A DNA stretch of 64,000 nucleotides. It comes from Gluconacetobacter sacchari (GTDB taxonomy: Bacteria > Pseudomonadota > Alphaproteobacteria > Acetobacterales > Acetobacteraceae). The stretch lies in the NCBI RefSeq assembly GCF_014174255.1, contig NZ_JABEQJ010000023.1:1-64000 (forward strand), given 5' to 3'. A model generated the notes under the pieces. That model did no database searches. It was given only the letters and a program-made list of their open reading frames with translations, and had not been told where the DNA came from. Positions 18,484 to 38,395 of this stretch are shown piece after piece. A program made the translations under genes and the position numbers. Each line of letters begins with the position of its first letter. Position 1 is the first letter of the stretch.

Positions 18484-18508
18484 CAATGCAGTGAAGAGGA
18501 CCCGGACC

Positions 18509-21755: not shown

Positions 21756-23228
21756 ATGCAGTTTCTTTCCGTCCGGCGCATCGACCGGTCCTTTCTCCGC
21801 GGGCTGGCGGTCTGCGTGCTCGGAGCCCTTCCGCTGCGTTGCATCCCCGCTGCACACGCGCAGGTGCTCGATAACGATATCGGCTCGGCCCCCAGCATCC
21901 GCGTCAGCACACCGCTGCCGGCGGCGGCGCCGCTGACGACATCGGTGCCGCCCTTTTCCCAGCCCGAGGCGTTGTTTCCCAACCCGTTCGGGCTGACGAA
22001 ATATCTGCGCGATCGCGGTGTCAATTTCCTGTTCGACAACACCAACGAATTCGCGGGCGCGCTGACGCAGCCGACCCCCGGATTCCGGAATTATCGCCAG
22101 GGTGCCAGCAATGCGGGGCAATACGCCAACGAACTGGACATCAACTGGGAGAAGTTGGCGGGTCTGACCGGCTTTGCTACCCATGTCATCACGGTGGGAC
22201 GGTACGGCACCACCGCCAACCGCATGTTCGGCGACTGGCTGGATCACGCGTCGGAAGATTACGGCGGTGGCGGCAACGTCGCTGTGCATCTGGTGTTGGC
22301 CTATGGCGAGGAGACTCTGCTCGGCGGCCGCGTCGCCATTGCGGCGGGGCGCATTCCGCTGGCATCGGATTTCGCGGCCAGCCCGCTGTTCTGCAATTTC
22401 ATGAACGGCAGCATGTGCGGCCGCCCCAAGGGCATTACGGATTCGAACTACATGCCGGGCTATCCGGCTTCGACCTGGGGGTTTCGCGTCCGGGGGCGGC
22501 CCACCCGCTCCACCTATATCCAGACCGGCGTCTATCCGATGGAAAACGGCATCTATGCCGTCGCCCAGCACCGTACTGGGTTCAAGTTCAACGGGGCCAA
22601 CATCCTGGGCTACACCATCCCCGTCGAAACGGGATGGGAACCCGTGTTCGCGCACGGCACGCTGCCAGGACATTACAAGGTCGGGGCGGCGGCGCTGGAC
22701 GAGCCGATGCCCGACAACCTGTTCGACAGCGATGGCCGGCCCTACGCACTGAGTGGCCGTGCGCCGCGCATGCATAGCGCGGGGTGGGAAAGCTGGGTGA
22801 TGTTCGACCAGCGGATCCATCACCCGAAAGGTGGCGGCAAGGATGCCGGAATCACGATTCTGACCGGCATTACCTACAACGACCCGCATACGTCACTGCG
22901 GAACTATGTGGGCTATCTTGCTTTCCTGGACCGGGGTTTCTGGCCCTCGCGCCCCTTCGATACGATCGGCGCCGCGTTTACCTATACCAAAATCGACCGT
23001 GGGGTGTCGTTGACCGACGGGTACCTGATGGACGTGGGAAAGTCCCTGCCGAACCATGCGACCGGCATCCAGGGCCATGCCGAGGTACTGGAAGTGAACT
23101 ACGCTATCCATGTCTGTCGTGGCGTGGTGTTCCAGCCGGTGTTCGAATATTACTTCAACCCCAACGCGCAGTCCAACCTGCGAAACGCGACCCTGCTCGG
23201 CTTCAAGAGCCATATCGAAATTCTGTGA
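21756..23228 (+). CDS. oprB: OprB-family porin, second copy
   Basis: A 490-residue outer-membrane porin with a signal peptide (LRGLAVCVLGALPL, cleavage after AHA near residue 35). The OprB domain follows: LTKYLRDRGVNFLFDN, ELDINWEKLAGLTGF, RVAIAAGRIPLASDF and a C-terminal strand ending in hydrophobic residues. It is clearly diverged from the porin at 4779. The same solute class (sugars, polyols, sugar acids) is expected. It stands alone between the toxin-antitoxin remnant and the accessory island. Confidence 0.85.
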   Translation: MQFLSVRRIDRSFLRGLAVCVLGALPLRCIPAAHAQVLDNDIGSAPSIRVSTPLPAAAPLTTSVPPFSQPEALFPNPFGLTKYLRDRGVNFLFDNTNEFAGALTQPTPGFRNYRQGASNAGQYANELDINWEKLAGLTGFATHVITVGRYGTTANRMFGDWLDHASEDYGGGGNVAVHLVLAYGEETLLGGRVAIAAGRIPLASDFAASPLFCNFMNGSMCGRPKGITDSNYMPGYPASTWGFRVRGRPTRSTYIQTGVYPMENGIYAVAQHRTGFKFNGANILGYTIPVETGWEPVFAHGTLPGHYKVGAAALDEPMPDNLFDSDGRPYALSGRAPRMHSAGWESWVMFDQRIHHPKGGGKDAGITILTGITYNDPHTSLRNYVGYLAFLDRGFWPSRPFDTIGAAFTYTKIDRGVSLTDGYLMDVGKSLPNHATGIQGHAEVLEVNYAIHVCRGVVFQPVFEYYFNPNAQSNLRNATLLGFKSHIEIL

Positions 23229-23599
23229 CTGAGTGTGCCGGTCCATGAGTACGGTCGAGTGCGGGCCGCCTCTGGATGACGTGGCCCGGGTAACGGGAAC
23301 AGCTTCGGCAAAATCCGGACGCGGGGGCTGCGCCTTACCGGCGGCAAGACGGTTTTGCTTGGTTGAAGCGCCGATCGTGTAGCGAACCTGGTTCTGTTGC
23401 GGAATGGCGGGCCACGACCGATAGTGATGATCACTACGTTTACGCTATAGCCCTACCATAGGTTCATCGACGTCCCGATACATTGCAAGCTGCCACGCCG
23501 CCCACTCTGTGGGCTTCCCATATACAGCAAAGCAGGATGGAAACATGAATAGTGCTGGATTCCATCTTGGTGAGTGATCAGGCCGGATAAAGGCCGAAA
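23229..23599. other. gap of 371 bases, possible left edge of the island
   Basis: No gene is supported. The style of genes changes across this stretch, from the acetic-acid-bacterial porin to the regulator and cargo of the island, so the left junction probably lies here. No copy of the tRNA-Ser 3' end was found by eye. Confidence 0.35.
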
Positions 23600-26452
23600 T
23601 TAGCTTAGTGTCACCAAGAGGCTTGCCGCAGCCTTCAGATCAACCGTATCCAACCCCTCCGTGAAGCTCTCGAACGGTGGATCAAGAATCTCTCGGGCAT
23701 GCCTGCGCTCATTGCGAGCAGCTAGAAGGCCCGCGAGGTCGATAGCGGTGCGTAACTCCCATGCGCGAGCGCCCTGATGACGGCTATGTTCTAGCGACCG
23801 CGCAAAGTATGTTTCTGCCTCATCGGTGTCAGGCCGTGACGTTGCGAGAGCAAGGTTGGCCTTCACGCGCAGCAATTCCGGCATGTAGCAGAGATCGCCA
23901 TTCGCTTCGACCGATTGGATCGTCTCGTCGATTAGTGCGAGCGCTTCCGCGAAGCGACGCGTTGCCCCGAGGCCCTGAACGAGCGCGATGTTGAGCGGCG
24001 TCGTGAGCAGTTCATAGGGTGCAGTGTGAAGCTCGGTGAGACCGTGTTGCAAACTCCTGACCCCAGCGTCGGCGTCGCCTCGCCGGATGGCGAGTTCCCC
24101 CTGGAAGCCGCGCCCTACCGCGAGATAGGGGCCGAGAGAATGAAGGGTGGCACGCGCGAAAAGACGGTCGATATGCTCCTCAGCACGCGCGAGATCACCG
24201 ACCCAGAGGAATACCGAAACAGCCCAAACAAGAGCGATGGAGAGCGTCAGAGGATGGTCCAGGGTCTCTGCATCCTCGATTGTCAGGAGGGCCCGCTCCA
24301 CCGCCCGATCCGGGTGGCCTCTCAGCCAAAGTGTTCGGGCCAGGATCGCACCGGCTAGAAGCCGCCCGTCGAAGCCGAGATAGTCCGTCGTTGTCCGGTC
24401 GGCGCGCGGCCCGCATCGCAACGCCGCTTCGAGCGCTGTTTGCGCTCGGCCGAGTTCTCCGCTGAGGTGAAGCGAGATTCCCATCAACGAATGCGCCAAG
24501 GTGGTGGAGACCGAATCTCCAAGGATTCCGGCGAGGTCGGAACAGCGCTCTGCATAAGTCAGCGCTGTTTTGAACTCTCCAGTGCGCAGGTAGAACATCT
24601 GAAGCGGGCCGAGAACCTGGATCTGGTCAAGGGTATTGCCGTGCTCTTCGGCAAGGACGAAGCTTATGTTTAAGGCCTCGCGGGCGGCATCCCTTCCTCC
24701 GCGCGTGAACATCAGGGATACTCCGAGAGCCGCCTGAAGATGCATCTCCTCGCGCCCAGCACTTCCGGCGTCGTGGAGCGCCTCGATCGCTCGGGCTGTC
24801 CAACGATGACATTCGGTCAAAAGAGACATCGACAGAAGAACCGGAGCGGCGGCAACGGCGAGCCGAATACCGATTTTGGTGTTCCCCGTGGGTCCAAAGC
24901 ACCATTCCAGAGCCGCCCGCACATTGGCGAGGCCGGCAAGGTGCTGCGAGCGTTGCGCTGCGCTCGACAAGGTCGGCCATTCGGCTCCCGTCTCCTCCAG
25001 CCATCGCAAGTAGTGGGCAGCATGACGCGCGGCTAAATCGGTGACCTCAGTGTCGTCGATGTCGATCTGGAGGGCGTAAGCGCGCGTCGTGTCGAGCAGC
25101 CGGTAGCGCATCGTCGCGCCGGTGGGCCTTGTTGCGACCATCGACTTGCCGACGAGGCTGTCGATGGCGCTGAACACAAGCGCCTTGTCAATGTCAGGGC
25201 CGGCCACGACCGCGAGCGCGGCCTCAACTGAAAAGTGGCCTACGAATACGGCGAGCCGGCGAAGCGCGAGACGCTCGAACTCAGAAAGAAGCCCGTAGCT
25301 CCAATCCAGTGTGGCCTGGAGGGTCTTCTGACGCAGGGGCGCCATGCGCTGGCCCGGCCAGAGCAAGGTCAGGCGCTCATCGAGAAGGGCTGCGGTTTCT
25401 TGCAACCCAAAGCTTGCGACTCGTCCGGCTGCCAGCTCGATCGCGAGCGGCACGCCATCGAGTTTTCGGCAGATGCCGGCCACGACCATCGCATTCGCCT
25501 CATCGAGGTCGAGACGGGCGCCGCTCGCCACGGCGCGTTCCATGAACAGTTGGGCTGCCGGGAACCCCTGCACGATCGCCGCGGTGATCGCCGGATCATC
25601 GGGCGGATATGCCAGTGGCGCGAGCCTGTAGACATGCTCGCCCTCGACATTGAGCGGCTCACGGCTCGTTGCCAGAATGTGGGCTTCAGGCGCTGCGGCG
25701 AAGATACGTGCAGCCAACTCTGCGGCCGCATCGATGACATGCTCGCAGGTGTCGAGAATCAGGAGAATTCGCCTGCTCGCCAGATATGCGAGTAGGCCCG
25801 AGACGGCATCGTCGGATTCGAGCGACAAACCGAGCATTGAGGCCACGGTCGTCGCAACAAGATTGGGATCACTCAGCGCACCGAGATCGACGAGATGCGC
25901 GGCGCCTGCGAACGTCTCAATCAGAGCATGCCCCACAGCCACCGCGACAGTAGTCTTGCCGACTCCGCCCACGCCTACAATCGTAACGAAGCGCGTTGCG
26001 GTAAGTTGCGCCGAGAGCGAGGCAGTATCATCGGTTCGCCCGACTATCCGGGTCAGACGGCTCGGCAAATTGGCGTGTGGATAGCCCGTCGCAACTTCGC
26101 TTTGCACATCTTCACGACCGCCAGATCGCCAAACCGGCGCCACGAAACAATAGCCGCGCCCCGCCAGGGTGGTGATGTAACGGGCGCCGTCCTTGCCATC
26201 GCCCATTGCCTTTCGCAGGTTGGCGATGTGAAACCGCAGGCTGCCTTCCTCGACCGTGACATCGGGCCATACGCGCGCCAGCAAATCTGCCTTCGTGACC
26301 ACTTCATTCGGGCGCGTCGCCAAAGCAGTCAGGATGTCGAAAGCACGCGCGCCCAGGTCGACAGGCGCCCCTTGCCGTAGCAGGAGCCGCTCATCCACAA
26401 TCAGCGTAAATGGGCCAAACGCGATTTCTTCGGTCATCCACATTTTCGGCAT
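23600..26452 (-). CDS. winged-helix transcriptional regulator with NB-ARC-type ATPase and TPR-like domain
   Basis: A 950-residue multidomain regulator. Residues 5-105 form an OmpR/CadC-type winged helix (FGPFTLIVDERLLL, GARAFDILTALATRPNEVV, GARYITTLAGRGYCF). Residues 130-480 are a STAND ATPase with Walker A GVGGVGKTTVAVAVG, Walker B-like ILLILDTCEHVI and ILATSREPL. The remainder is helical, TPR-like. Such proteins act as one-component switches whose ligand is unknown. It is divergent from the epoxide hydrolase gene and probably controls the cargo operon. ATG 26437 is an alternative start. Confidence 0.85.
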   Translation of the reverse strand: MPKMWMTEEIAFGPFTLIVDERLLLRQGAPVDLGARAFDILTALATRPNEVVTKADLLARVWPDVTVEEGSLRFHIANLRKAMGDGKDGARYITTLAGRGYCFVAPVWRSGGREDVQSEVATGYPHANLPSRLTRIVGRTDDTASLSAQLTATRFVTIVGVGGVGKTTVAVAVGHALIETFAGAAHLVDLGALSDPNLVATTVASMLGLSLESDDAVSGLLAYLASRRILLILDTCEHVIDAAAELAARIFAAAPEAHILATSREPLNVEGEHVYRLAPLAYPPDDPAITAAIVQGFPAAQLFMERAVASGARLDLDEANAMVVAGICRKLDGVPLAIELAAGRVASFGLQETAALLDERLTLLWPGQRMAPLRQKTLQATLDWSYGLLSEFERLALRRLAVFVGHFSVEAALAVVAGPDIDKALVFSAIDSLVGKSMVATRPTGATMRYRLLDTTRAYALQIDIDDTEVTDLAARHAAHYLRWLEETGAEWPTLSSAAQRSQHLAGLANVRAALEWCFGPTGNTKIGIRLAVAAAPVLLSMSLLTECHRWTARAIEALHDAGSAGREEMHLQAALGVSLMFTRGGRDAAREALNISFVLAEEHGNTLDQIQVLGPLQMFYLRTGEFKTALTYAERCSDLAGILGDSVSTTLAHSLMGISLHLSGELGRAQTALEAALRCGPRADRTTTDYLGFDGRLLAGAILARTLWLRGHPDRAVERALLTIEDAETLDHPLTLSIALVWAVSVFLWVGDLARAEEHIDRLFARATLHSLGPYLAVGRGFQGELAIRRGDADAGVRSLQHGLTELHTAPYELLTTPLNIALVQGLGATRRFAEALALIDETIQSVEANGDLCYMPELLRVKANLALATSRPDTDEAETYFARSLEHSRHQGARAWELRTAIDLAGLLAARNERRHAREILDPPFESFTEGLDTVDLKAAASLLVTLS

Positions 26453-26641
26453 TGTCGAACATCATCCTTCAAGGTCGCGTGCGCCTTGGGCTACCGGCCA
26501 GCGTTGCAGGAATTTCGGGTCCAAGACTTGCTGCTTCTGGCAAGCGCTAACACCTCATAATAACGCATAACGGGTGCATCGGTCGATCTCTGTCTATGTG
26601 TTGACGCAGCAAGACCTTCTGCTGACGCATGGAGAACGCTC

Positions 26642-27916
26642 ATGCCCGCACCGACGCTGCCGCTCACGCGGCGCACCCTACTTGCCGGGATGGCGGCTGC
26701 TAGCGCCCTCCGAGCGGTTCCCGTGGCGGCGCAGGCTGGTGTCAAGAGCGAAGCCATCCGGCCCTTCCGCGTCGATATTCCGGACGACGAGATTATCGGG
26801 CTGCGCCGGCGTCTAGCGGAGACGCGATGGCCGATGCGGGAAACTGTCACGGATCAGTCCCAAGGAGTTGAACTGGCGAGACTCCAGGAACTCGTCCGCT
26901 ACTGGATGACCGACTATGACTGGCGGAAGGTCGAGGCGCACCTGAACGCGCTGCCGATGTTCCTCACAGAGATCGACGGCCTCGACATTCACTTCATCCA
27001 TGTCCGTTCGACGCATGCGAACGCCATGCCGATGATCATGACGCATGGTTGGCCCGGCTCGATCCTGGAGTTCATGAAGGTCGTCGGTCCTCTTACCGAT
27101 CCCGTCACGCATGGCGGTTCGGTCGGGGATGCCTTCCACCTCGTCGTGCCCTCGATCCCTGGCTTCGGCTTCTCCGGTAAGCCGGCGGAAACGGGTTGGG
27201 GCTCGGACCATATCGGCCGCGTCTGGTCCATGCTGATGCGGCGCCTGGGCTATGATCGCTTCGTCAGCCAAGGCGGCGACTGCGGTTCGGTGATCTCCCA
27301 GCGCATGGCGCTGCAGAAGGTGCCCGGTCTGCTCGGCATCCACCTCAACATGCCGGCTGTGGTTCCAGCTGAGATCGCCAAGATACTGGCCGCGGGGGAC
27401 CCGGCCCCGACCAGCCTTTCGGCCGTAGAGCGCGGAGCCTTCGACCAGTTGGAAGCCTTCTATCGCGACAACTCCGCCTACGCAGCGATGATGAACACCC
27501 GGCCGCAGACCATAGGCTATTCGCTGGTCGACTCCCCGGTCGGCATGTCCGCTTGGATGTACGAGAAGATTGCCCAATGGACCTATAGCGGCGGCCAGCC
27601 CGAGCGTGTCCTAACCCGCGACGAAATCCTCGACGATATCTCGCTTTACTGGCTGACGGGGACCGGTGCATCGGCGGCCCGAATCTACTGGGAAGACCAC
27701 TCCAACAACTTCAACGCGCGCGGCGTCATCGACGTGCCGGTCGCTGTGAGCGTCTTTCCCGGCGAGATTTTCCGCGCGCCCAGAACCTGGGCCGAGCGCT
27801 GCTACAAGAACCTCTTCTACTTCAGCGAGGTGAACAACGGCGGCCATTTCGCGGCGTGGGAGCAGCCACAGCTTTTCACGCAAGAGGTTCGGGCGGCCTT
27901 CAGGCCGCTGCGCTGA
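26642..27916 (+). CDS. epoxide hydrolase, exported (EHN plus alpha/beta hydrolase)
   Basis: A 424-residue protein with a twin-arginine signal (LTRRTLLAGMAAASA, cleavage near residue 30). An epoxide hydrolase N-terminal domain follows (PFRVDIPDDEIIGLRRRLAETRWP), then the alpha/beta hydrolase core: MTHGWPGSILEF (oxyanion), QGGDCGSVISQ with the nucleophilic Asp, and NNGGHFAAWEQP with the catalytic His. It would hydrolyse epoxides to diols, probably in the periplasm. GGAGAA precedes the ATG. It is the first gene of an eight-gene co-directional set. Confidence 0.88.
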   Translation: MPAPTLPLTRRTLLAGMAAASALRAVPVAAQAGVKSEAIRPFRVDIPDDEIIGLRRRLAETRWPMRETVTDQSQGVELARLQELVRYWMTDYDWRKVEAHLNALPMFLTEIDGLDIHFIHVRSTHANAMPMIMTHGWPGSILEFMKVVGPLTDPVTHGGSVGDAFHLVVPSIPGFGFSGKPAETGWGSDHIGRVWSMLMRRLGYDRFVSQGGDCGSVISQRMALQKVPGLLGIHLNMPAVVPAEIAKILAAGDPAPTSLSAVERGAFDQLEAFYRDNSAYAAMMNTRPQTIGYSLVDSPVGMSAWMYEKIAQWTYSGGQPERVLTRDEILDDISLYWLTGTGASAARIYWEDHSNNFNARGVIDVPVAVSVFPGEIFRAPRTWAERCYKNLFYFSEVNNGGHFAAWEQPQLFTQEVRAAFRPLR

Positions 27917-27950
27917 CCGCACCCCTTCTCTCCAAGAGGAACAGAGATCA

Positions 27951-28367
27951 ATGACCGCACAGGCCAAATCGCTTTACACTGCAAAGGTTCGCACAACAGG
28001 CGGCCGGGACGGAGCCTCTCGCAGCTCCGATGGCCGGCTGGATATCAGGCTTTCAACGCCTGGAGGTCCAGGCAGCGGCACCAATCCGGAACAGCTCTTC
28101 GCCGCCGGCTGGTCGGCCTGCTTCGAGGGCGCGATGGTGATTGCCGCCCGCAAGATGAACGTCGCGCTGCCTGCTGATCTGGCGATCGATGCGGAAGTTG
28201 ATCTGAATGCCGCTGATGGCGGCTATTTCCTCGGCGCGCGCCTCAATGTGAGCCTGCCTGGTCTCGACCGAGCAACTGCCCAGGCTGTCGTGGATGCCGC
28301 GCATCAGACCTGCCCGTACTCCAAAGCCACACGCGGCAACATCGACATCGCGATCAATCTCCTCTGA
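27951..28367 (+). CDS. ohr: organic hydroperoxide resistance protein (Ohr/OsmC family)
   Basis: A 138-residue Ohr-type thiol peroxidase. Both redox cysteines are present, in AAGWSACFEGAM and in HQTCPYSKATRGNIDI. NPEQLFAAGWSACF is the family signature. It reduces organic hydroperoxides in the cytoplasm using lipoylated or dithiol partners. It lies 34 bases after the epoxide hydrolase. Unlike many Ohr genes it has no MarR-type OhrR regulator beside it. Confidence 0.9.
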   Translation: MTAQAKSLYTAKVRTTGGRDGASRSSDGRLDIRLSTPGGPGSGTNPEQLFAAGWSACFEGAMVIAARKMNVALPADLAIDAEVDLNAADGGYFLGARLNVSLPGLDRATAQAVVDAAHQTCPYSKATRGNIDIAINLL

Positions 28368-28427
28368 GGACGCTTCCTGCGAGCCGCCTGCCAACCGAAT
28401 CCACTGCCCCTCGAAGGAGATTCACCA

Positions 28428-29492
28428 ATGGATACGACCACGAAGCCCGAGCAAATCGATTATTTGCGCCGTCGCCTTTTTGGAGCCGCGGCCATGACCA
28501 TCGCCGTCGCGCAGCTTGGCATGAGCGGGACCGCAAACGCACAGTCTACGAAGACGTCATCGAAGCTGCTGACAACCATGCCGGGGACACACACATCGTT
28601 CCGCGCGCTCAAGCAAATCGAGGCTGGCGTGTTGAACGTCGGATATGCCGAGGACGGTCCTGACAACGGACCCGCCGTTATTCTGCTACATGGCTGGCCT
28701 TATGACATTCACAGCTATGTGGATGTCGCGCCGTTGCTGGCCTCGGCCGGATACCGGGTCATCATCCCGTATCTTCGCGGTTACGGCACGACCCGTTTCC
28801 TTTCAAGCGAAACGCCTCGCAACGGCCAGCAAGCCGCGCTCGGAGCCGACATTATCGCCTTTATGGATGCGCTCAAGATCGAGAAGGCGACCGTTGCCGG
28901 CTACGATTGGGGTGCGCGAACGGCCAATATCGTCGCCGCTCTTTGGCCTGAGCGCTGCAAGGCGATGGTTTCCGTGAGCGGCTATCTCATTGGCAGCCAG
29001 GAACTGAACCGGGCGCCGCTGCCGCCCAAGGCCGAATTGCAGTGGTGGTATCAATACTACTTCGCCACCGAGCGTGGCCGGGCCGGCTATGAGAAATACA
29101 CGCACGATTTCGTCCGCCTGATCTGGGAGCTCGCGTCGCCAAAATGGGCCTTCGACGACGCCACCTTCGACCGCTCGGCTGCTGCGTTCGACAATCCCGA
29201 CCATGTTGCCGTCTCGATTCATAACTATCGTTGGCGGCTTGGCCTGGCGCAAGGCGAGCCGAAATATGATGACTTGGAAGGGAAGCTCGCAGAGTTGCCG
29301 GCGATCGGAGTGCCGACGATCACCATGGAAGGCGACGCGAACGGCGCGCCGCATCCCGATCCGGCAGCTTACGCCAGGAAGTTCTCCGGCAGATACGAGC
29401 ACCGGCTGATCACGGGCGGCATCGGCCACAACCTGCCGCAAGAGGCGCCTCAAGCCTTCGCGCAGGCGGTCATCGATGTCGATAGGTTTTGA
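28428..29492 (+). CDS. alpha/beta hydrolase, epoxide hydrolase / dehalogenase-like, exported
   Basis: A 354-residue protein with a Tat-type leader (LRRRLFGAAAMTIAVAQ). The catalytic region has LLHGWPYDIHSYVDVAP (oxyanion), VAGYDWGARTANIV with Asp in the nucleophile position, and GGIGHNLPQEAP with the catalytic His. An Asp rather than Ser nucleophile points to epoxide hydrolases or haloalkane/haloacetate dehalogenases rather than esterases. It has GGAGA upstream of ATG 28428. Its role beside a second epoxide hydrolase suggests two related substrates. Confidence 0.83.
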   Translation: MDTTTKPEQIDYLRRRLFGAAAMTIAVAQLGMSGTANAQSTKTSSKLLTTMPGTHTSFRALKQIEAGVLNVGYAEDGPDNGPAVILLHGWPYDIHSYVDVAPLLASAGYRVIIPYLRGYGTTRFLSSETPRNGQQAALGADIIAFMDALKIEKATVAGYDWGARTANIVAALWPERCKAMVSVSGYLIGSQELNRAPLPPKAELQWWYQYYFATERGRAGYEKYTHDFVRLIWELASPKWAFDDATFDRSAAAFDNPDHVAVSIHNYRWRLGLAQGEPKYDDLEGKLAELPAIGVPTITMEGDANGAPHPDPAAYARKFSGRYEHRLITGGIGHNLPQEAPQAFAQAVIDVDRF

Positions 29493-29516
29493 TCACGCAC
29501 CCGGCGGAGCTTTCCA

Positions 29517-30029
29517 ATGAAGCCTCTCTACCTCCTGCCATGCGTCGTCGCGGCGCTGGTGTCGCTCGTCTTTGTAATGATCTCCGGGGCCAAAGGCGAT
29601 ACGAAGAGCAAAGACGCGGCGCCGATCTACGGTGTCACCGTCCCCGAGGGATACCGGCAATGGGAGTTGATCGCGCCGGCACTTGAGGCGGAACCCCTCG
29701 ACGAGCTTCGCGCTGTCGTCGGAAACAGCATGGCGATCGATGCCTATCGCGCCGGTACGTTGCCGTTCCCGGACGGAACGGTCCTCGTCAAGCTCGCCTG
29801 GAAGCAGATGCGATCCACGGAGTTCGAACCCGCGACCGTTCCAGGGGTTGCCACCACCGTCCAGGTGATGGTCAAGGACTCGAAAAAATACGCCGCCACC
29901 GGCGGCTGGGGATTCGGCCGATTCATCGGCGGCAAGCCGGTCGATGAGGCGCAGCACCAAACCTGTTTTGCCTGCCACGAAGCCCGCGTCAGGGGACACG
30001 ACTTCGTCTTCACCCGGTTCGCGCCGTAA
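29517..30029 (+). CDS. cytochrome P460-family c-type heme protein
   Basis: A 170-residue exported protein with an N-terminal hydrophobic leader (LLPCVVAALVSLVFVM). The P460 fold is suggested by VPEGYRQWELIAP near the start, LPFPDGTVLVKLAWK and GGWGFGRF. The single heme-binding motif CFACHEAR is close to the C-terminus. Known members oxidise hydroxylamine or act in nitric oxide detoxification; others have unknown roles. It starts 24 bases after the hydrolase and is in the same operon. Confidence 0.8.
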   Translation: MKPLYLLPCVVAALVSLVFVMISGAKGDTKSKDAAPIYGVTVPEGYRQWELIAPALEAEPLDELRAVVGNSMAIDAYRAGTLPFPDGTVLVKLAWKQMRSTEFEPATVPGVATTVQVMVKDSKKYAATGGWGFGRFIGGKPVDEAQHQTCFACHEARVRGHDFVFTRFAP

Positions 30030-30082
30030 CGCGGCCGCGAACGGATAACGGCACGCCGGAAATCAACCTGAAAGAGCAAGCT

Positions 30083-30928
30083 ATGTCGCAACGATGGCTC
30101 ATCACTGGAAGCTCGCGTGGCCTCGGCCGTGCCCTGTCCGAGGCTGTTCTGCAAGCCGGCCATCGGCTTGTGGCTACAGCCCGAGAGCCTGCGCGACTGA
30201 GTGATCTTGCGAAGTGCTATGGCGATGCCATCCGGACATTCGCGTTGGACGTGACTGACCCTATCGCCGCGCAGGCGGCCGTTCGTGTCGCCGTGGACAG
30301 CTTCGGAGGCATCGACGTCCTCGTCAACAATGCCGGCTACGGCAATGTCAATTCGGTCGAGGACACGGAGCTGGATGATTTCCGCCAGCAGATCGAGACG
30401 AACCTGTTCGGCACGATCATCGTGACGAAGGCCGCGATCCCCGTCATGCGCGAACAGCGCGGCGGCCATATCATCCAGTTCTCGTCCGTCGGCGGGCGTA
30501 TCGGCGCGCCAGGCCGCGCCCCCTATTCCGCGGCGAAATGGGGCATCGAAGGTTTCTCCGAAGTGCTCGCGCAGGAAATGGCCCTGATCGGGGTCAGGGT
30601 CACGGTAATCGAGCCAGGAGGCTTTCGGACCGACTTCGCGGGATCCTCGACCATGCTGAAGGAGGGGCGTCCCGAATATGACGAGGTCGTGGGCGCAACC
30701 GCACGCTTGCAGCGGACATATGACGGCCGGCAGCCCGGCGACCCGACGCGCGCGGCACAGGCCATTCTTGAGATAGCCGCGATGGAACAGCCGCCGTTCC
30801 GACTGCCGCTTGGAAGCGATGCCGTGAAGATCATCGAGCAGGCTGATCTCAAAAAGCTGGACGACCTCAAGCAATGGCGTGCGCTGAGCGTGTCCACTGA
30901 TTTTCCGCAGCAAAGCGACGCTCCATGA
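30083..30928 (+). CDS. short-chain dehydrogenase/reductase
   Basis: A 281-residue classical SDR: cofactor loop ITGSSRGLGRALSEA, NNAGYGN motif near residue 87, Ser in FSSVGGRIG, and YSAAKWG with the catalytic Tyr and Lys. EPGGFRTDF follows. It probably uses NADP(H) on an alcohol or carbonyl. Its stop overlaps the next ATG at 30925. It lies in the middle of the cargo operon. Confidence 0.88.
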   Translation: MSQRWLITGSSRGLGRALSEAVLQAGHRLVATAREPARLSDLAKCYGDAIRTFALDVTDPIAAQAAVRVAVDSFGGIDVLVNNAGYGNVNSVEDTELDDFRQQIETNLFGTIIVTKAAIPVMREQRGGHIIQFSSVGGRIGAPGRAPYSAAKWGIEGFSEVLAQEMALIGVRVTVIEPGGFRTDFAGSSTMLKEGRPEYDEVVGATARLQRTYDGRQPGDPTRAAQAILEIAAMEQPPFRLPLGSDAVKIIEQADLKKLDDLKQWRALSVSTDFPQQSDAP

Positions 30929-30942
30929 AAGGAATTACTCAG

Positions 30943-31719
30943 ATGAACAAGCTCTTCGCAGGACTGGCAATAACTGCCGCCATACTCAGCAATTCCAGCG
31001 CACGCGCGCAGCCCGACAAGCCCACCATTATCCTGGTGCATGGCGCATTCGCCGACGCATCGAGCTGGAACGGCGTCATTGGAATACTTGAGAAGGACGG
31101 TTATCCCGTCGTAGCCGCCGCCAATCCTCTGCGTGGCGTCCGGACCGACTCGAAATACATCTCCGATATTCTGTCCGGCATCAAATCGCCCGTTGTCCTG
31201 GTGGGTCATTCTTATGGCGGCTCTGTCATCAGCGAAGCCGCCAACGGCCACGCCGATGTCAAGGGGCTGGTCTACGTTGCGGCATTCGCACCGGACGTTG
31301 GCGAGACAGCCGCCGGGCTTGCGGGCAAGTTTCCAGGCAGCACGCTTGCTCCAACGCTTGCGCCGCCGGTGACGCTGTCCGGCGGTGGAATCGATCTCTA
31401 CATCCGGCGGGACAAATTCCACGATCAATTCGCGGCAGATGTTTCGGAGGCCGATGCGCGGTTGATGGCCGCCACGCAGCGACCGATCACCGAAGCCGCG
31501 CTCAACGAGCCGGAGACAGCGCCGGCGTGGAAGACCATTCCGGCCTGGTTCGTCTATGGCGACAAGGACAAGAACATCCCGCCGGAAGCTTCCGCTTTCA
31601 TGGCCGCACGCGCCCACTCAAGAGAAACCGTCGTGATCAAAGGCGCCTCGCATGTGGTGATGGTGTCCAATCCCGGACGAGTCGCAAGACTGATCGAGAA
31701 GGCCGCTGCGGCAGAGTGA
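30943..31719 (+). CDS. exported alpha/beta hydrolase
   Basis: A 258-residue protein with a signal peptide (LFAGLAITAAILSNSSARA). The hydrolase core shows IILVHGAFADASSW, nucleophile Ser in VGHSYGGSVISEA, and a C-terminal His in GASHVVMVSNP. It resembles the arylester/haloperoxidase-like hydrolases of soil bacteria. ATG 30943 is preferred because AAAGGA lies nine bases upstream; ATG 30925 overlaps the SDR stop and is also possible. Substrate unknown. Confidence 0.83.
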   Translation: MNKLFAGLAITAAILSNSSARAQPDKPTIILVHGAFADASSWNGVIGILEKDGYPVVAAANPLRGVRTDSKYISDILSGIKSPVVLVGHSYGGSVISEAANGHADVKGLVYVAAFAPDVGETAAGLAGKFPGSTLAPTLAPPVTLSGGGIDLYIRRDKFHDQFAADVSEADARLMAATQRPITEAALNEPETAPAWKTIPAWFVYGDKDKNIPPEASAFMAARAHSRETVVIKGASHVVMVSNPGRVARLIEKAAAAE

Positions 31720-31743
31720 GCATTCTCCAGCGAGGATCAGAAT

Positions 31744-33381
31744 ATGTCGGTAACATCCGAGTTCGATGAGTTCGCCGAACGCCTCCGGCGCAACCAGCAC
31801 GAGTTAGGACGCGAACTGCGATTGCAGTATGACTTTATCGTGTGCGGCTCCGGTTCTTCCGGCTCGGTGGTCGCGCGCAGGCTCGCGGAGAATCCCAACG
31901 TCAGCGTGCTGCTGATTGAGGCCGGATCCAGCGACGACGTTCCGGCCGTCATTCAGGCAAATCAATGGCCCTTGAATCTCGGAAGCGAGAGGGATTGGGG
32001 CTTTCAAGGCGAACCCAATCCGCACATTAACGGGCGCTCGATTCCCTACTCGATGGGCAAGGTTCTCGGCGGCGGCTCCAGCATCAACGTCATGGTTTGG
32101 GCTCGGGGGCACAAACAGGACTGGGATTCCTTCGCATCAGCGGCAGGTGATCCGGCCTGGAGTTACGACTCGGTTCTGAAACTCTATCGCCGTATTGAAG
32201 ACTGGCGGGGCACGCCCGACCCGGACTACCGCGGCGCGGGAGGATTAGTGTTCGTGGAGCCGGCGCCCGATCCCAATCCCCTTGCCCCCGCCACGGTGAA
32301 CGGGGCGCGCGCAATCGGCATCCCGACATACGAAACCCCCAACGGCCGCATGATGGAAAGTGATGGCGGCGCATCCATCACAGATGTGCGCGCGCGCAAC
32401 GGACTGCGAGAGTCGATATTCCGCTCATATGTCTATCCCTACATGGACAGGCCGAACCTGACGGTTCTGACCGAGGCGCTGGTTGTCCGTGTGACGTTCG
32501 ATGGAAAGCGCGCCACCGGCGTCGAGATCGCGCGGAAGGGAGAGATGCTGAAGATCGCAGCCTGCCTTGAGGTGGTGCTTTCGCTCGGCGCAATTCATAC
32601 GCCCAAAGTTCTAATGCAATCCGGCATTGGCGATCGGGCGGATTTGGAAAGGCTCGGACTTCCCGTCGTCGCGCATCTGCCGGGTGTGGGCCAGAATCTT
32701 CAGGACCACGTCGCATTCGACTGCATCTGGGAATATCAGGAGTCCTTGCCGCCGCGCAACACTATGTCGGAGGCGATCATCTTTTGGAAAAGCAGATCAG
32801 AGCTGACCTGTCCGGACATTCTCATCTGCGAGGCCGAGGTTCCGAAATCGACTCCGGAGAACGCAGCGAGGTTCGGACTGCCTTCGGCAGGTTGGATATT
32901 GTTGGGAGGCGTCGCGCATCCGAGAAGCAGAGGCCGTCTACGTCTAAGCGGTCGCGATCCGCTCGACCCCGTTCGTATCGAAGCGAACGTGCTGGCCGAT
33001 ATGGATGACATGAAGACGGCGATCGCTTGCGTCGAGTTCTGCCGTGAGATCGGCAATTCGGCTCCTCTGCGTCCTTTTGTGAAACGGGAAGTGATGCCGG
33101 GGACTTTGAAGAGTGCCGAACTGGAAGATTTCGTGCGAAATGCAGCCACCAGCTTCTGGCATTTGTGCGGCACCGCCAAGATGGGTCGTGACGGCATGTC
33201 GGTCGTCGACAGCCAACTCAAGGTGTACGGGGTTACCAATCTTCGTGTGGCGGACGCCTCGATCATGCCCCGCATAACGACCGGGAACACGATGGCGCCT
33301 TGCGTCATCATCGGTGAGCGCGCGGCCGAGGCGCTGCGAACCGACTATGGACTAGCCGCGTCCAGACACGAGCTGACATAG
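31744..33381 (+). CDS. GMC-family FAD oxidoreductase (choline dehydrogenase-like)
   Basis: A 545-residue flavoprotein. The FAD motif DFIVCGSGSSGSVVARRLAE begins near residue 31, followed by LIEAGSS, the GMC signature GKVLGGGSSINVMVWARG, and the C-terminal catalytic region FWHLCGTAKMG with LRVADASIMP. Family members oxidise alcohols such as choline, glucose or long-chain alcohols. It starts 24 bases after the hydrolase gene. There is no leader peptide, so the enzyme is probably cytoplasmic or peripheral. Confidence 0.88.
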   Translation: MSVTSEFDEFAERLRRNQHELGRELRLQYDFIVCGSGSSGSVVARRLAENPNVSVLLIEAGSSDDVPAVIQANQWPLNLGSERDWGFQGEPNPHINGRSIPYSMGKVLGGGSSINVMVWARGHKQDWDSFASAAGDPAWSYDSVLKLYRRIEDWRGTPDPDYRGAGGLVFVEPAPDPNPLAPATVNGARAIGIPTYETPNGRMMESDGGASITDVRARNGLRESIFRSYVYPYMDRPNLTVLTEALVVRVTFDGKRATGVEIARKGEMLKIAACLEVVLSLGAIHTPKVLMQSGIGDRADLERLGLPVVAHLPGVGQNLQDHVAFDCIWEYQESLPPRNTMSEAIIFWKSRSELTCPDILICEAEVPKSTPENAARFGLPSAGWILLGGVAHPRSRGRLRLSGRDPLDPVRIEANVLADMDDMKTAIACVEFCREIGNSAPLRPFVKREVMPGTLKSAELEDFVRNAATSFWHLCGTAKMGRDGMSVVDSQLKVYGVTNLRVADASIMPRITTGNTMAPCVIIGERAAEALRTDYGLAASRHELT

Positions 33382-33498
33382 CGCCTCGCCCGCATGTCCT
33401 TTCGGGACAGCCGCACGCGGCGGCATCAGCGACGAGGAGTTGCGCACCTTCGGCCAAGTCGGCGTGCGAGCGACAGTTACAGAAAATGGAGATGTGCA

Positions 33499-34467
33499 AT
33501 GAAAGCCATTGTCATGACCCGAACGGGCGGACCTGAGGTGATCGAGTTTGTCGAGCGCTCAGACCCGATGCCAGGCCCGGGCGAGGCACTCGTCAAGATC
33601 GCAGTCGCCGGCGTCAACTTCATGGATATAGGGGTCCGCCGCGGCACCGCGTGGCGCGAGACGCCTGACCCGAAGATACTGGGCGTCGAAGGCGTCGGCC
33701 GTGTTCTGGCAGTTGGCCAAGGTGTCGATGACATCCAGCGCGGCCAGCGCGTGGCTTGGGTTTATTCGCCCGGCAGCTATGCCGAAAAGGCTGTAATCCC
33801 GGCTGCCGCGCTTGTAACTGTACCGGACGAGATCGATGACCGGACCGCTGCGGCGGTGATGATGCAGGGGCTGACCGCCAGCCACTTCGCGACGGATTTC
33901 TACCCTGTGCAGTCAGGTGACATTGCGCTTGTCCACGCGGCCGCCGGTGGCCTCGGTCTGCTCCTGACACAGATCATCAAGTTGAGGGGCGGCCATGTCA
34001 TCGGCCGGGTCTCTTCGCGGAGCAAGATCGCGGTGGCCAAGGAGGCTGGCGCAGATGACATCATCATCGATACCGAAGGCCGGTTCGCCGACGAAGCGAT
34101 TCGTCTGTCGGGAGGCGAAGGCGTGCACGTCGTCTACGACGGCTCCGGCCCGAAAACTTTCCAGGGCTCGCTTGATGCGCTCCGGATTTCAGGCACTTTC
34201 TGCTGGTATGGCCCCGTTCTGGGCGGTCCTGGCCCGATCGACATCATGACGCTCCCGAAGAGTATCAAGATCGGTTACCCTACCTTCTACGACCATATCC
34301 ACACGCCCGAACTATTCCGCGCCCGTTCGGCCCGGCTGTTCGACTGGCTTATCGAGGGCAACCTCAAGATTCGGATCGGCGGCGAATATCCGCTGGCGGA
34401 TGCGGCGAAAGCCCATGCTGATATGGAACGCCGCGTCACGACGGGCAAACTGTTGCTCATACCCTAG
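33499..34467 (+). CDS. zinc-independent quinone oxidoreductase (MDR superfamily)
   Basis: A 322-residue medium-chain reductase. MKAIVMTRTGGPEVIEF is a typical quinone oxidoreductase start. The NADPH loop is HAAAGGLGLLLTQIIKL near residue 143, and the structural zinc cysteines of alcohol dehydrogenases are absent. It probably reduces quinones or enones. ATG 33499 was taken; an upstream frame at 33394 lacks family similarity. It closes the cargo set. Confidence 0.87.
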   Translation: MKAIVMTRTGGPEVIEFVERSDPMPGPGEALVKIAVAGVNFMDIGVRRGTAWRETPDPKILGVEGVGRVLAVGQGVDDIQRGQRVAWVYSPGSYAEKAVIPAAALVTVPDEIDDRTAAAVMMQGLTASHFATDFYPVQSGDIALVHAAAGGLGLLLTQIIKLRGGHVIGRVSSRSKIAVAKEAGADDIIIDTEGRFADEAIRLSGGEGVHVVYDGSGPKTFQGSLDALRISGTFCWYGPVLGGPGPIDIMTLPKSIKIGYPTFYDHIHTPELFRARSARLFDWLIEGNLKIRIGGEYPLADAAKAHADMERRVTTGKLLLIP

Positions 34468-34527
34468 AAACGCGAACGACCCGAGACAGAGCCCGCACGG
34501 AAGAACCCAGCGGCCTGCATCGCTGCG

Positions 34528-34725
34528 ATGGGCGCCGCCATGCCTGAAGATCACCGGCGGTTCCTTGTCGGCTTCAAACGAGGCGAACCGGATTGGACGC
34601 TTCTCGGGATACCGGAAGCGCAGCATTTGCCCGCCGTCATGTGGAAACAGTGCAACCTTGCCAAGCTGCCCGATGCCAAACGGGGCGAGCTGGTCGATGC
34701 GTTGGCGTGCGTTCTCTTTCCCTGA
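34528..34725 (+). pseudogene. AbiEii/AbiGii-type nucleotidyltransferase toxin, C-terminal fragment
   Basis: The 65-residue frame (EDHRRFLVGFKRGEPDWTLLGI, LPAVMWKQCNLAKLP) resembles the C-terminal tail of AbiEii-type nucleotidyltransferase toxins, where KRGEPDW-x-LLG and LPA-x-x-WK-x-xNL are common. The nucleotidyltransferase domain and the AbiEi partner are missing. It lies between the cargo operon and the transfer genes. Confidence 0.5.
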
Positions 34726-34769
34726 CCGCAACGCCATCGAAGGGGCGTGTCCTATGGCGCTGCTGATGC

Positions 34770-35006
34770 TCAGTTATCCTCGAACGCCTGCTTTCCCTTC
34801 GCGGTCCAGAGCGCCCGTGCGTGTTCACCCTGCTCGCTTTTGAGCCTGTCGGCCATCCAGAGCAGCGCGCCGTAGATCATGGCGCGATCATCGCTGGTCA
34901 GGTCCACGATACCGGCCTTGACGACAAGGCCGCCGAGTTCGATCAAATGCCGCGTCCGCTTGCGACGTTTGACCTGCCAGGTGCGCATGTCATGACGTGC
35001 TTGCAC
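34770..35006 (-). CDS. traD: conjugal transfer protein TraD
   Basis: A 78-residue protein of the Ti-type TraD family: MRTWQVKRRKRTRHLIELGGLV and LTSDDRAMIYGALLWMAD are typical. In Agrobacterium-type systems TraC and TraD accompany the relaxase at oriT. It overlaps the end of traC by 17 bases on the same strand. The translation begins at 35006 (alternative Met a few codons later). Confidence 0.8.
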   Translation of the reverse strand: MQARHDMRTWQVKRRKRTRHLIELGGLVVKAGIVDLTSDDRAMIYGALLWMADRLKSEQGEHARALWTAKGKQAFEDN

Positions 35007-35316
35007 CGTTTGATGCCGATTGCGCGCCGCCTGGTTGCGTCGCAGCGCCGCCCGAGTCGCGGTCAGGCGGAGATGCAGATCGCCGTGCCCGCCCTTGAAA
35101 GAACGCGGCCCCGCGTTTCGCCCATGCCTCCCTCTTTCCGGCGTCCTTGGTTTCGGCCAGCACGATCAGCGCGCCCGCCAGTTCCTCGGCGCTGAGGGCG
35201 TCGGCGCCGGTCAAGATGACCAACTCGCCGAGTTGCTGTACCTTGCGGGCTTTCAGGTCTCGCGTCTTGTCTTCCAGTGACTTCAGTTCCGCGTCAAAGT
35301 CCCGTGGCTTGCGCAT
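34990..35316 (-). CDS. traC: conjugal transfer protein TraC
   Basis: A 108-residue protein: MRKPRDFDAELKSLEDKTRD at the start, coiled-coil-rich, then LGELVILTGADALSAEELAGAL and WAKRGAAFFQ, as in Ti-type TraC. ATG 35316 was chosen because GGAGG lies five bases upstream; the longer open frame upstream is non-coding. It is divergent from traA across the candidate oriT and overlaps traD downstream. Confidence 0.82.
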   Translation of the reverse strand: MRKPRDFDAELKSLEDKTRDLKARKVQQLGELVILTGADALSAEELAGALIVLAETKDAGKREAWAKRGAAFFQGRARRSASPPDRDSGGAATQPGGAQSASNGASTS

Positions 35317-35487
35317 CATATCCTCCATAAGCTGTCGATGAAGCGATGATAGTTGAGCGCCTACCACAATGCTGTAAGGTCGCCGGGACGAGCTGACGCG
35401 GCGCGGGCTGTCCCGAGAAATTAGTTTCGAGGGCGCGCTTATACGTCGTTCCGACGTGCGCTTCGCTGTGATGATGTTCGGATCGCG
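35317..35487. other. candidate origin of transfer (oriT)
   Basis: The gap between divergent traC and traA is the usual place of oriT in Ti-type plasmids. It contains GGGCGCGCTTATACG directly followed by an inverted repeat ACGTCG-TTC-CGACGT (35443-35457), an arrangement like relaxase nick regions. Function is inferred from position and structure only. Confidence 0.5.
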
Positions 35488-38395
35488 ATGGCGATCTATC
35501 ATCTTCACGTCAAGGTCATCGGCCGCAAATCCGGCTCCAGCGCGGTGGCCTCCGCCGCCTACCGTTCGGCCTCGCGGCTGCGCGACGACCGGCTGGACCG
35601 CGACCACGACTTCTCGAATAAGTCCGGCGTCGTCCATTCCGAGGTCATGCTACCGGAGAACGCGCCGGAGCAAATGGCGCGACCGCGAACGGCTTTGGAA
35701 CGATGTAGAGGCGTTCGAGAAGAGGAAGGACGCCCAACTTTCTCGTGAGATCGAGTTCGCCCTTCCGCACGAGATGACGCAAGCGCAGGGCGTCGAACTC
35801 GCCCGCGACTTCGTGCAGGCGGAGTTTGTCGATCAGGGCATGATCGCCGACCTCAATGTGCATTGGGACATGGCCGAGGACGGGACGCCCAAGCCCCATG
35901 CCCATGTCATGCTGACCATGCGCGAGGTGAGCGAGGATGGTTTCGGCCAGAAGGTGCGGGACTGGAACCGCACGGAGCTGGTCGAGCATTGGCGCGAGCG
36001 TTGGGCCGATCACGTCAACGAGCGGCTGGCCGAACTCGACATCGACGCGCGCATCGACCATCGGAGCCTGGAAGCGCAGGGCATCGGCCTTGAGCCGCAA
36101 TCGAAGATTGGCGCACCCGCGCAGCGCATGGAAGCCGCCGGGCTTGAGGCCGACCGCGCGGACGAACACCGCGAGATCGCACGGGCCAACGGCGAGCGGA
36201 TCATCGCCGATCCTTCGGTGGCGTTCGACGCGATCACCCACCAGCAATCGACCTTCACGCGGCGCGACATGGCGATGTTCGCGCATCGGCACAGCGACGG
36301 GATCGAGCAGTTCAACGCAGTCATGGGCGCGATGCGGAGCGCGCCCGAGTTGGTCGAACTCGGCGCGGATGGACGCGGCGAGGACCGCTTCACCACCCGC
36401 GAGATGATCGAGACCGAGCAGCGCCTGCACCGCGCCGCCACGATGATGGCGGAACGGGAACGTCATGAGGTCAGCGGTAGCGACCGCAAAGCCGCATTGG
36501 CCCACGCGGCGGATCGCGGTCTTGTCCTGTCTGACGAGCAGGTCGACGCTCTGGCGCATGTCACGGATGGGCGCGATCTCGGCATTGTCGTCGGCTATGC
36601 CGGGACGGGAAAGAGCGCGATGCTGGGTGTGGCGCGCGAAGCCTGGGAAGCGGCTGGCTACGAGGTCCGGGGCGTCGCGCTGTCCGGCATCGCCGCCGAG
36701 AATCTGGAAAGCGGATCGGGCATCGCGTCGCGCACCATCGCCAGCATGGAACACGGCTGGGGACAGGGCCTCGACGTAATCACGTCCCGCGATGTGCTTG
36801 TCATCGACGAGGCGGGCATGGTCGGCACGCGGCAGTTGGAGCGCGTTCTGTCCCATGCCGCCGAGGCCGGCGCCAAGGTCGTGCTGGTCGGCGATCCGCA
36901 GCAGTTGCAATCCATTGAAGCGGGCGCGGCGTTCTGCTCGATCTTCGAGCGCCACGGCGGGGCGGAGATCGGCGAGGTGCATCGCCAGCGCGAGGACTGG
37001 CAGCGCGATGCCACCCGCGACTTGGCAACCGGCAGGACCGGCGATGCGATCCATGTCTATGACAGTCACGGCATGGTCCATGCCGCGCAGACGCGGGAAC
37101 AGGCGCGTGACGATTTGATCGACCGCTGGGACCGCGACCGGCAGGCCGCACCAGACAGCAGCCGCATCATCCTCACCCACACCAACGACGAGGTGCGCGT
37201 GCTCAACGAGGCGGCGCGTGGGCGGATGCGGGAAGCTGGCGATCTTGGCGAGGACGTGCGCATCACGGTCGAGCGTGGCGCACGAACCTTCGCCCCCGGC
37301 GACCGCGTGATGTTCTTGGCTAACGAGCGCGGCCTTGGCGTAAAGAACGGCACGCTCGGGACTATCGAGCAGGTCAGCGCGCAGAGCATGACCGTCCGCA
37401 CCGATGACGGCCGCGATGTCGCGTTCGACATGAAGGACTACAATCGCATCGACCACGGCTATGCCGCCACGATCCATAAGGCGCAGGGCATGACGGTGGA
37501 CCGCGCCCATATTCTGGCGACACCGGGCCTGGACGCTCACGGCAGCTATGTCGCCCTGTCGCGTCACCGCGACGGCATGGACCTGCACTATGGCCGCGAC
37601 GACTTCGCCAGCCAGGACAAACTCATCAACACCCTGTCGCGCGACCGCTCCAAGGACATGGCGAGCGACTACGAACCCGCCCGTGACTACGCCGAGCGGC
37701 GCGGCATCACCTTCCGCGAGCGGGTGGAGCGGGGTGTCGAGATCGTGCGCCAAGTTCCCGAAAAGGTGCGCGGCATGTTCGACGGGCTGCGCCTGCCCGC
37801 CGAAGGCGGACAGGGGCCGGAAAGGAAGGTGGAGGAAGACCCGGAGGCGGCGTTGCGCCGCGCCCGTGGCCGGGCGCTCGTCCGCCATGCCCGCACCGTC
37901 GATGCGATCTTCGCGGCGCAGGAGCAGGGCGGCAAGGCCAGCCCCGATCAGGTTAGGGAATTGCAGGAGGCGCGCCAGCGGTTCGAGGAGGTGCGCCCCT
38001 ACGGCTCGCATGATGCCGAAGCGGCCTACAAGAAGAACCCGGAGCTTGCGACGGAGGCGGCGTCAGGCAACACGCGGCGCGCCATCCGCGCCCTGCAACT
38101 GGAAACCGAGCTACGCACCGATCCCGGCCTGCGCGCCGACCGCTTCGTGGAACGCTGGCAGAATCTCCACAGGACCAGCGACCAACGGTATGCGGCGGGC
38201 GACTATGCCGGCCATAGGGCCGCGCGGGCGGAGATGGGCAACATGGCGCACAGTCTCGAACGCGACCCGCAGATGGAGTCCCTTCTGGCTGGCCGCAAGC
38301 GCGAACTCGGCATCGCATTCGATTCGGGGATGGGCGTCGGCCGCGACCTCACCCTCACGTTCGGGCTTGGCCGGGGCCGGGGTCTCGGGCTGTAG
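35488..38395 (+). pseudogene. traA: Ti-type TraA relaxase/helicase with a +1 frameshift
   Basis: The intact product would be about 969 residues. The MobA/MobL relaxase N-terminus (MAIYHLHVKVIGRKSGSSAV, AAYRSASRL) reads from ATG 35488 to LPENAPEQ. An extra A in the AAA at 35672-35674 then moves the rest to another frame, which continues WRDRERLWNDVEAFEKR. The histidine motif PKPHAHVMLTMREV, the helicase Walker A VGYAGTGKSAML, Walker B VLVIDEAGMVG and GYAATIHKAQGMTVD are all intact afterwards. The relaxase nicks oriT and unwinds DNA for transfer. Either a sequencing error or a true inactivating mutation explains the shift. Confidence 0.88.

Follow-up and report, generated by a model that had tools for sequence, protein, structure and literature searches.

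The closest described counterparts of the regulator considered here are, as we take it, the STAND/LAL-type activators of the MalT and AfsR kind, in which, as in the STAND-TPR protein 6mfv, an NB-ARC-type ATPase is followed by a TPR sensor. The OmpR/PhoB activators, which have a class II promoter layout, use a Trans_reg_C domain and direct repeats just upstream of the −10 element. With respect to the enzymes, the Cif system of Pseudomonas aeruginosa presumably combines an exported epoxide hydrolase with a dedicated TetR-type regulator and to our knowledge contains neither Ohr nor a P460 protein; in the Ohr/OhrR system, the Ohr has both cysteines. Here, we describe a locus of Gluconacetobacter sacchari (assembly GCF_014174255.1, contig NZ_JABEQJ010000023.1, positions 1 to 64,000 of the forward strand; this 64,000-nucleotide stretch is called the window), in which eight genes of the same strand (26642-34467, +) lie opposite a regulator gene (23600-26452, −) encoding a protein of 950 aa, termed REG. 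The coordinates and strands of all nine open reading frames were verified, and these frames together with domain models agree with the sequence-only reading, which had proposed eight co-directional genes opposite a winged-helix/ATPase regulator.

In comparison to the STAND/LAL-type activators, REG differs by its N-terminal OmpR-type winged helix, its own direct-repeat operator and its detoxification neighbors, and in comparison to the OmpR/PhoB activators by the lack of a receiver domain, the fusion to a STAND ATPase and a different repeat sequence. The operon resembles the Cif system in having an exported epoxide hydrolase (export being predicted here) and a dedicated regulator; of its two epoxide-hydrolase-like enzymes, EH1 and EH2, the latter has the Cif-like chain 7jqx among its weaker matches (E 1.2e-12), with the putative epoxide hydrolase 5bov as the far closer and indeed closest solved chain (E 2.2e-136). 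Its Ohr has both cysteines as well, but in contrast to the Ohr/OhrR system the set lacks a MarR-type gene and comprises a STAND regulator and extra enzymes. A search of the open PMC literature found no paper on REG, the operator or this gene combination. Epoxide hydrolases, Ohr and STAND-type activators each belong to known kinds; the 28-bp triple repeat is newly described.

This operator, CTAACACCTCATAATAACGCATAACGGG (26547-26574), is a triple direct repeat located between REG and the operon. It was revealed by side-by-side reading of divergent spacers, from which a consensus of approximately CTMACAnnnnCTMACAAnnCMTAACGGG emerged. At a position weight matrix score of at least 12, the window contains one such site, upstream of the first operon gene, and a loose pattern matched once in the 4.83-Mb genome of the organism itself. 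The first 13 sites reached leave-one-out scores of 30.9-44.8, compared to a maximum of 13.9 for 300 plain base shuffles per sequence. A stricter pattern (at most three mismatches) yielded 38 matches in ten regulator-bearing genomes and 0 for the reversed control. Among 42 distinct sites with a score of at least 22, 35 are followed by a TA exactly 20 nt past the operator, with each of the other offsets from 10 to 31 found for at most one site; outside the training loci the proportion is 22/28, and of four sites read by eye, those of the plasmid loci L227, L228 and L229 have the TA at offset 20, too. The conserved TA is read as a predicted −10 element, which would begin at 26595 in the window and place the predicted transcription start at about 26607, 35 nt ahead of EH1. 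With the TA taken as −10, the operator would therefore span about −60 to −33, the position at which activators of the OmpR/PhoB kind bind. We infer that REG binds the 28-bp operator, and it would do so as an activator of transcription rather than as a repressor.

A set of loci anchored on EH2 (80 out of at least 594, plus seven plasmid loci selected via DNA similarity to the operon, 87 in total) contained an operator site in 13 of the 15 loci with the regulator vs. two of the 72 without it. Because this set was anchored on EH2, a regulator-only scan was performed as well, covering 385 genomes from the class and 397 from the order to which the genome G384 belongs. It comprised 47 stretches of about 20 kb, including 34 that cover 35 new places from a second search; from the first search, which gave 15 places outside the own genome, two with 36 and 40% identity were left out, their contigs measuring 4.5 and 4.0 kb. 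When these stretches were scored with a matrix from 11 training sites, the operator adjoined all nine REG homologues of at least 56% identity (scores 24.6-38.4) and was the best site of the stretch in eight of them. All nine also have an epoxide hydrolase and/or Ohr in the stretch, eight as a divergent Ohr-EH2-P460 arrangement. For the 38 homologues of at most 51% identity, EH1, EH2, Ohr or P460 occurred in the stretch in ten cases, and a site scoring at least 12 was found near the regulator start in five and anywhere in the stretch in 13. Of 13 plasmid records with a homologue of at least 51.9% identity, seven were examined (L094-L096, L227-L230), and in each of them it adjoins an epoxide hydrolase and/or Ohr; plasmid homologues at 47 and 39% have other neighbor genes. 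On pRL9 of Rhizobium johnstonii 3841, a 52% homologue outside the training set, RL_RS27395, faces a divergent EH-VOC-Ohr arrangement, with an operator scoring 40.2 and a TA at +20.

Counts of operator neighbors cover 30 of the 38 genome sites, and for 22 of these a module gene other than the regulator (EH1, EH2, Ohr, P460, SDR, the unassigned gene C32 or SnoaL) starts within 450 nt, a number that falls to 19 without the SnoaL genes, which joined the module list after the sites had been viewed; a few of the module-gene matches are weak (28-29% identity). Elsewhere, regulator/operator pairs lie beside EH1, a glyoxalase-like protein and MsrA. In three Bradyrhizobium-like loci (L218, L225, L226), a SnoaL-like gene has the operator 61-80 nt upstream of its start, but the operator is oriented away from this gene.

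The sequence-only reading had named the absence of a conserved neighborhood from other genomes as the finding that would speak against it, yet the gene order does recur. A divergent regulator followed by (EH1) Ohr EH2 P460 (SDR) (esterase) (quinone reductase), with the bracketed genes being variable, was found in Mesorhizobium (L002, L047), Phyllobacterium (L017, L095), Bradyrhizobium (L045, L069, L078), Skermanella (L079) and Rhizobium (L094, L096). Clustering of the open reading frames, picked by codon scores, around EH2 in the 87 loci gave 44 loci with Ohr, 34 with a serine hydrolase, 26 with EH1, 23 with P460 and 15 with the regulator, as well as 35 with a histidine kinase, 33 with response regulators and 39 with a redoxin/thioredoxin fusion whose DsbD-like membrane part scores under the DsbD cut-off; these counts are not independent, since the loci are nearest relatives and many stem from Rhizobium. 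A chance assembly of unrelated genes is ruled out by the conserved gene order and the operator.

Two further regulator types were observed next to EH2 relatives. In L031 (7864-13219) and similar Rhizobium loci, the STAND regulator is replaced: the EH2 relative is accompanied there by a histidine kinase and an OmpR-type response regulator, along with a redoxin fusion and Ohr, so that the same enzymes have an exchanged regulator. In L010 (8296-9837), L008, L023, L039 and L058, winged-helix proteins of about 515-525 aa without a STAND part are encoded divergently to EH2, mostly with P460 behind EH2, and constitute a third regulator type for the EH2-P460 pair.

The domain composition of REG is that of a STAND ATPase with a P-loop ATPase, a repeat sensor and a separate effector domain, as judged from sequence and structure model. 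Trans_reg_C (63.2 bits, cut-off 26.2; OmpR, PhoB and CadC chains were matched), NB-ARC (24.6 bits, cut-off 23.5) and TPR_12 (34.3 bits, cut-off 30.1) all scored above their cut-offs, and the P-loop residues G163, G165, K166 and T167 are invariant among 13 homologue sequences. The match to the AfsR model is weak (45.2 bits, cut-off 1430). In an AlphaFold model (mean pLDDT 80.8, pTM 0.66), a winged helix (about residues 9-110) is followed by the ATPase and a long helical solenoid (about 465-949). The nearest solved structures are 6mfv, Apaf-1 and CED-4, a likeness at the level of domains only, as the top match 6mfv reached a TM score of 0.30 by query and a root-mean-square deviation of 16.1.

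Enzyme families, assigned by Pfam/NCBIfam models, and catalytic residues agree with the epoxide, peroxide and carbonyl chemistry proposed earlier for the operon (Table 1). In EH2, residues H88, D160, Y208, Y267, E301, D303 and H334 are kept in 88/88 alignment rows, and D160 and Y208 align with EphB; we take D160 to be the Asp nucleophile, H334 the His base, and Y208 and Y267 the ring-opening tyrosines, so that judging by its residues EH2 appears to be a soluble-type epoxide hydrolase. EH1 has an EHN domain (134.3 bits), can be aligned over its full length to solved epoxide hydrolases, 1qo7 among them, and likewise has the residues predicted for the microsomal type: D213, Y280, E375 and H402 occur in 28/28 rows and Y349 in 24/28 (Phe in the other four), presumably forming the catalytic set of Asp, two Tyr, acid and His. 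The Asp nucleophiles postulated for the hydrolases would hold for EH1 and EH2, but not for the serine hydrolase ABH, which has a conserved Ser-Asp-His set; its conserved serine rules out an Asp-nucleophile epoxide hydrolase. Ohr has the two cysteines of its family, C57 (44/45 rows) and C121 (45/45).

The sequence-only reading had further assumed that several products are exported. This appears likely for EH1, EH2, P460 and ABH, which are probably exported as judged from their N-termini. The twin arginines of EH2 (R14R15) occur in 77/88 rows, the other 11 being gapped there; those of EH1 are present in 10 and 12 of 28 rows, with 13 rows gapped. P460 and ABH have Sec-like starts, as judged by eye. 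The P460 protein carries the predicted cross-link signature of CxxCH (both Cys and the His in 22/22 rows) plus a lysine, K92 (20/22 rows, Arg in two), which aligns with the cross-link position Lys78 of McP460, and R65 stands at the capping position (McP460 Arg50) with at least 95% conservation. The protein shares with the cytochrome P460/cytochrome c′-beta superfamily (PMC11928373) the CxxCH, the cross-link lysine and the capping arginine, but differs from McP460 by Q116, a glutamine in 22/22 rows, in place of the distal carboxylate Asp102. A review of this superfamily states that hydroxylamine oxidation requires the distal carboxylate and that the lysine cross-link suppresses peroxidase-like activity (PMC11928373). 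With the glutamine replacing the carboxylate and the cross-link lysine in place, neither hydroxylamine oxidation nor peroxidase-like activity is therefore predicted for this protein. A role as hydroxylamine oxidase was ruled out, as the distal carboxylate is absent.

Table 1. Features of the REG locus, with positions in the window and the evidence for each assignment.
Feature	Position	Strand	Evidence
REG: 950-aa STAND regulator, OmpR-type winged helix + NB-ARC ATPase + TPR solenoid	23600..26452	−	domain models, structure model
Operator: direct repeats CTAACACCT / CATAATAAC / GCATAACGGG	26547..26574	+	spacer comparison, pattern scans
Predicted −10 element, TA 20 nt past operator	26595..26600	+	conserved spacing
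EH1: microsomal-type epoxide hydrolase (predicted), twin-arginine start	26642..27916	+	EHN + Abhydrolase_1
Ohr: organic hydroperoxide peroxiredoxin	27951..28367	+	TIGR03561, 165 bits vs. cut-off 88.85
EH2: soluble-type epoxide-hydrolase-like enzyme, twin-arginine start	28428..29492	+	Abhydrolase_1; closest solved chain 5bov
P460-type c-heme protein (CxxCH, K92, R65, Q116)	29517..30029	+	Cytochrome_P460, 128.7 bits, cut-off 27
SDR family oxidoreductase	30083..30928	+	PRK06180 subfamily model above cut-off
ABH: serine alpha/beta hydrolase, Sec-like start, alternative start 30925	30943..31719	+	Abhydrolase_6
GMC oxidoreductase, closest to choline oxidases among solved structures; added locally to the core	31744..33381	+	GMC_oxred N + C
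QOR: quinone-oxidoreductase-like enzyme, earliest possible ATG at 33394	33499..34467	+	zinc-type ADH / PIG3-like; PIG3 model under cut-off

With the starts chosen, the gaps between the eight operon genes measure 14-117 nt. For QOR, the shorter form is the more likely one, as model matches begin at its residue 1-2. Consensus scans of 23300-35000 yielded two promoters (2.6 in shuffled sequence) and ten terminators (8.7 in shuffled sequence), which is chance level, so that a single transcript is neither supported nor excluded by them; all eight genes would be co-transcribed from the predicted promoter. The GMC gene lies outside the conserved core: it was found in one of the 80 EH2-anchored loci and one of the 47 regulator-anchored stretches, neither of which adjoins a close regulator homologue.

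We think it rather probable that the locus is an acquired, inducible operon which serves, in part within the cell envelope, to detoxify oxidants and the electrophiles derived from them, and which is not catabolic. An oxidative or electrophilic stress signal would switch the STAND regulator, probably via ATP/ADP exchange and oligomerization, and its OmpR-type winged helices would occupy the three direct repeats of about 10 bp at about −60 to −33, where a −35 element would otherwise lie, so that bound REG would activate the promoter with its −10 at a distance of 20 nt downstream of the repeats. Ohr would then reduce organic hydroperoxides, joined by the two probably exported epoxide hydrolases and by the P460-type heme protein and the serine hydrolase, both probably exported too, and cytoplasmic reductases would deal with carbonyls and quinones. 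Both the inducer class, i.e., oxidative or electrophilic stress, and the enzyme substrates are what we infer. The member with the clearest chemistry is Ohr, which indicates organic hydroperoxides; the oxidation of lipids and phenols is typically accompanied by epoxides, quinones and aldehydes.

The sequence-only reading had suggested that the operon could detoxify or degrade a plant-derived or xenobiotic compound. While detoxification fits, the degradation of a single compound is not supported, since no oxygenase, ring-cleavage enzyme or transporter is encoded within 26642-34467 and the composition shifts between genomes. Together with the neighbors of EH2 and Ohr relatives elsewhere, which include methionine sulfoxide reductase, the redoxin fusion, glyoxalase-like and SnoaL-like proteins, and for EH2 also a two-component system with redoxin fusion, MsrA and Ohr, this means that damage control fits better than carbon use. 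In Bradyrhizobium japonicum, induction by H2O2 has been described for Ohr genes as well as for a putative epoxide hydrolase (PMC3420878), and the full H2O2 tolerance of R. leguminosarum depends on a GMC enzyme (PMC7105596); these genes may or may not be orthologs of those in the operon. Damage control is thus favored over catabolism because of the Ohr chemistry, the redox gene context and these H2O2-linked cases.

The most probable alternative is that the operon is catabolic cargo that degrades one such compound, e.g., a terpene, via epoxide, hydroperoxide and carbonyl intermediates. The enzyme types would fit, beta-ketoadipate/quinate-type genes (9491-20398) and an OprB porin gene (21756-23228) lie upstream, and REG homologues of 38-46% identity are found beside SDR, ADH, GMC and hydrolase genes. 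However, the missing oxygenase and transporter, the differing composition and the Ohr, MsrA and redoxin context speak against it, and the porin has DNA of 92% identity in two relatives of the same genus that are without the operon, so that we regard this alternative as unlikely. Still less probable appears a response to hypohalous acid or a similarly strong oxidant, in which products derived from halohydrins or lipids would be the substrates of the epoxide-hydrolase-like enzymes, with the system answering the chlorination of proteins and lipids. MsrA and the redoxin fusion beside EH2 relatives and some operators would be in line with this, as would the fact that several oxidants strike the envelope first, but MsrA was clustered in just five of the 87 EH2-anchored loci and is absent from the operon in the window.

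Several observations weigh against REG controlling a detoxification regulon via this operator. The Fisher test of regulator vs. operator is partly circular, as ten of the 13 sites trained the matrix (three of the five other regulator loci have a site), and the ten test genomes were picked for bearing the regulator and may include species of training loci. No module gene start lies near seven of the 30 operator sites. Two loci (L042, L077) have an operator with no regulator within the stretch examined, a 57% homologue (L060) has merely a site scoring 12.2 with EH2 about 8 kb off, and a 52% Variovorax homologue adjoining EH1 has no site. The regulator family extends beyond the regulon, with the 47 and 39% homologues lacking a site beside their other genes, and GMC and SDR could have metabolic roles. 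That REG is a repressor or an unrelated neighbor and that the repeats belong to another factor, for which the operators without a regulator in view at two loci and the 52% homologue without a site could be cited, is nevertheless very improbable, since operator and regulator co-occur and the site lies upstream of a fixed −10, as with OmpR/PhoB-type activators, and not over it.

Returning to the operon as a proposed acquired detoxification unit, its cargo-like setting, already proposed from the sequence, is supported by several features, and acquisition is likely. The G+C content over 20-36 kb is 60-63%, whereas most of the remaining 2-kb blocks in the window have 63-71%. The operon is followed downstream by TraD and a TraA/MobA-type relaxase (34990-38395) and by a serine recombinase gene that starts at 39767 and adjoins a tRNA cluster. 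Among the matches listed from a DNA comparison with 40 relatives, of which 13 belong to the genus, none spans the operon. In G001 and G008, both of the genus, and in G037, which belongs to the class, separate pieces spaced by about 0.1-1.3 kb matched EH2 and Ohr at 68-75% identity, and these two genes therefore have resident relatives. The ends of the element were not located; when the 3′ part of tRNA-Ser was sought as a repeat in the window, the tRNA itself was the sole match.

Regarding the surroundings, a Phd/YefM-type antitoxin and PIN-domain toxin pair (39064-39770) lies between relaxase and recombinase. The recombinase frame (39767-42034, 755 aa) crosses the tRNA genes, with its recombinase domains ending near residue 365, so that the gene may truly stop earlier or be fused at the insertion point. 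Beside it, tRNA-Ser and tRNA-Arg (41366-41531) abut without a spacer (41455/41456), and in several relatives of the genus their matches lie apart, for example by about 0.07 kb (G011), 0.15 kb (G006) and 2.2 kb (G004). This suggests that the tRNA-Ser/tRNA-Arg junction is an insertion hot spot. A 206-bp stretch (20553-20758) has 90-93% matches at several places per genome of genus relatives (at least five each in G004 and G012). The beta-ketoadipate/quinate-type genes upstream of the porin encode a lyase, a hydrolase/decarboxylase, a CoA transferase, a thiolase, a shikimate dehydrogenase and a xylose-isomerase-like/HPPD-like fusion.

A further-reaching proposal, which we put forward tentatively and with considerable doubt, is that a previously undescribed bacterial NLR-like family of STAND activators directly senses oxidized lipids or other electrophiles via the TPR part and controls a transferable regulon with the CTMACA triple repeat. 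As a damage-control unit of the envelope, this regulon would comprise Ohr, exported epoxide hydrolases and a P460 heme protein whose pocket would be new in combining the cross-link lysine and the capping arginine with a glutamine at the carboxylate position. If the detoxification operon functions as described above, it would provide a concrete, testable operator for a widespread and uncharacterized class of STAND transcription factors, and it would tie the exported type of epoxide hydrolase, the role of which in bacteria is mostly obscure, to oxidant defense. The conserved glutamine in the heme pocket offers a natural test of the role of P460 relatives outside nitrifiers and methanotrophs. As the 52% homologue on pRL9 with its strong operator belongs to the legume symbiont R. 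johnstonii 3841, regulator, inducer and targets are directly testable there, and the carriers of this traveling gene set are soil and plant-associated bacteria.

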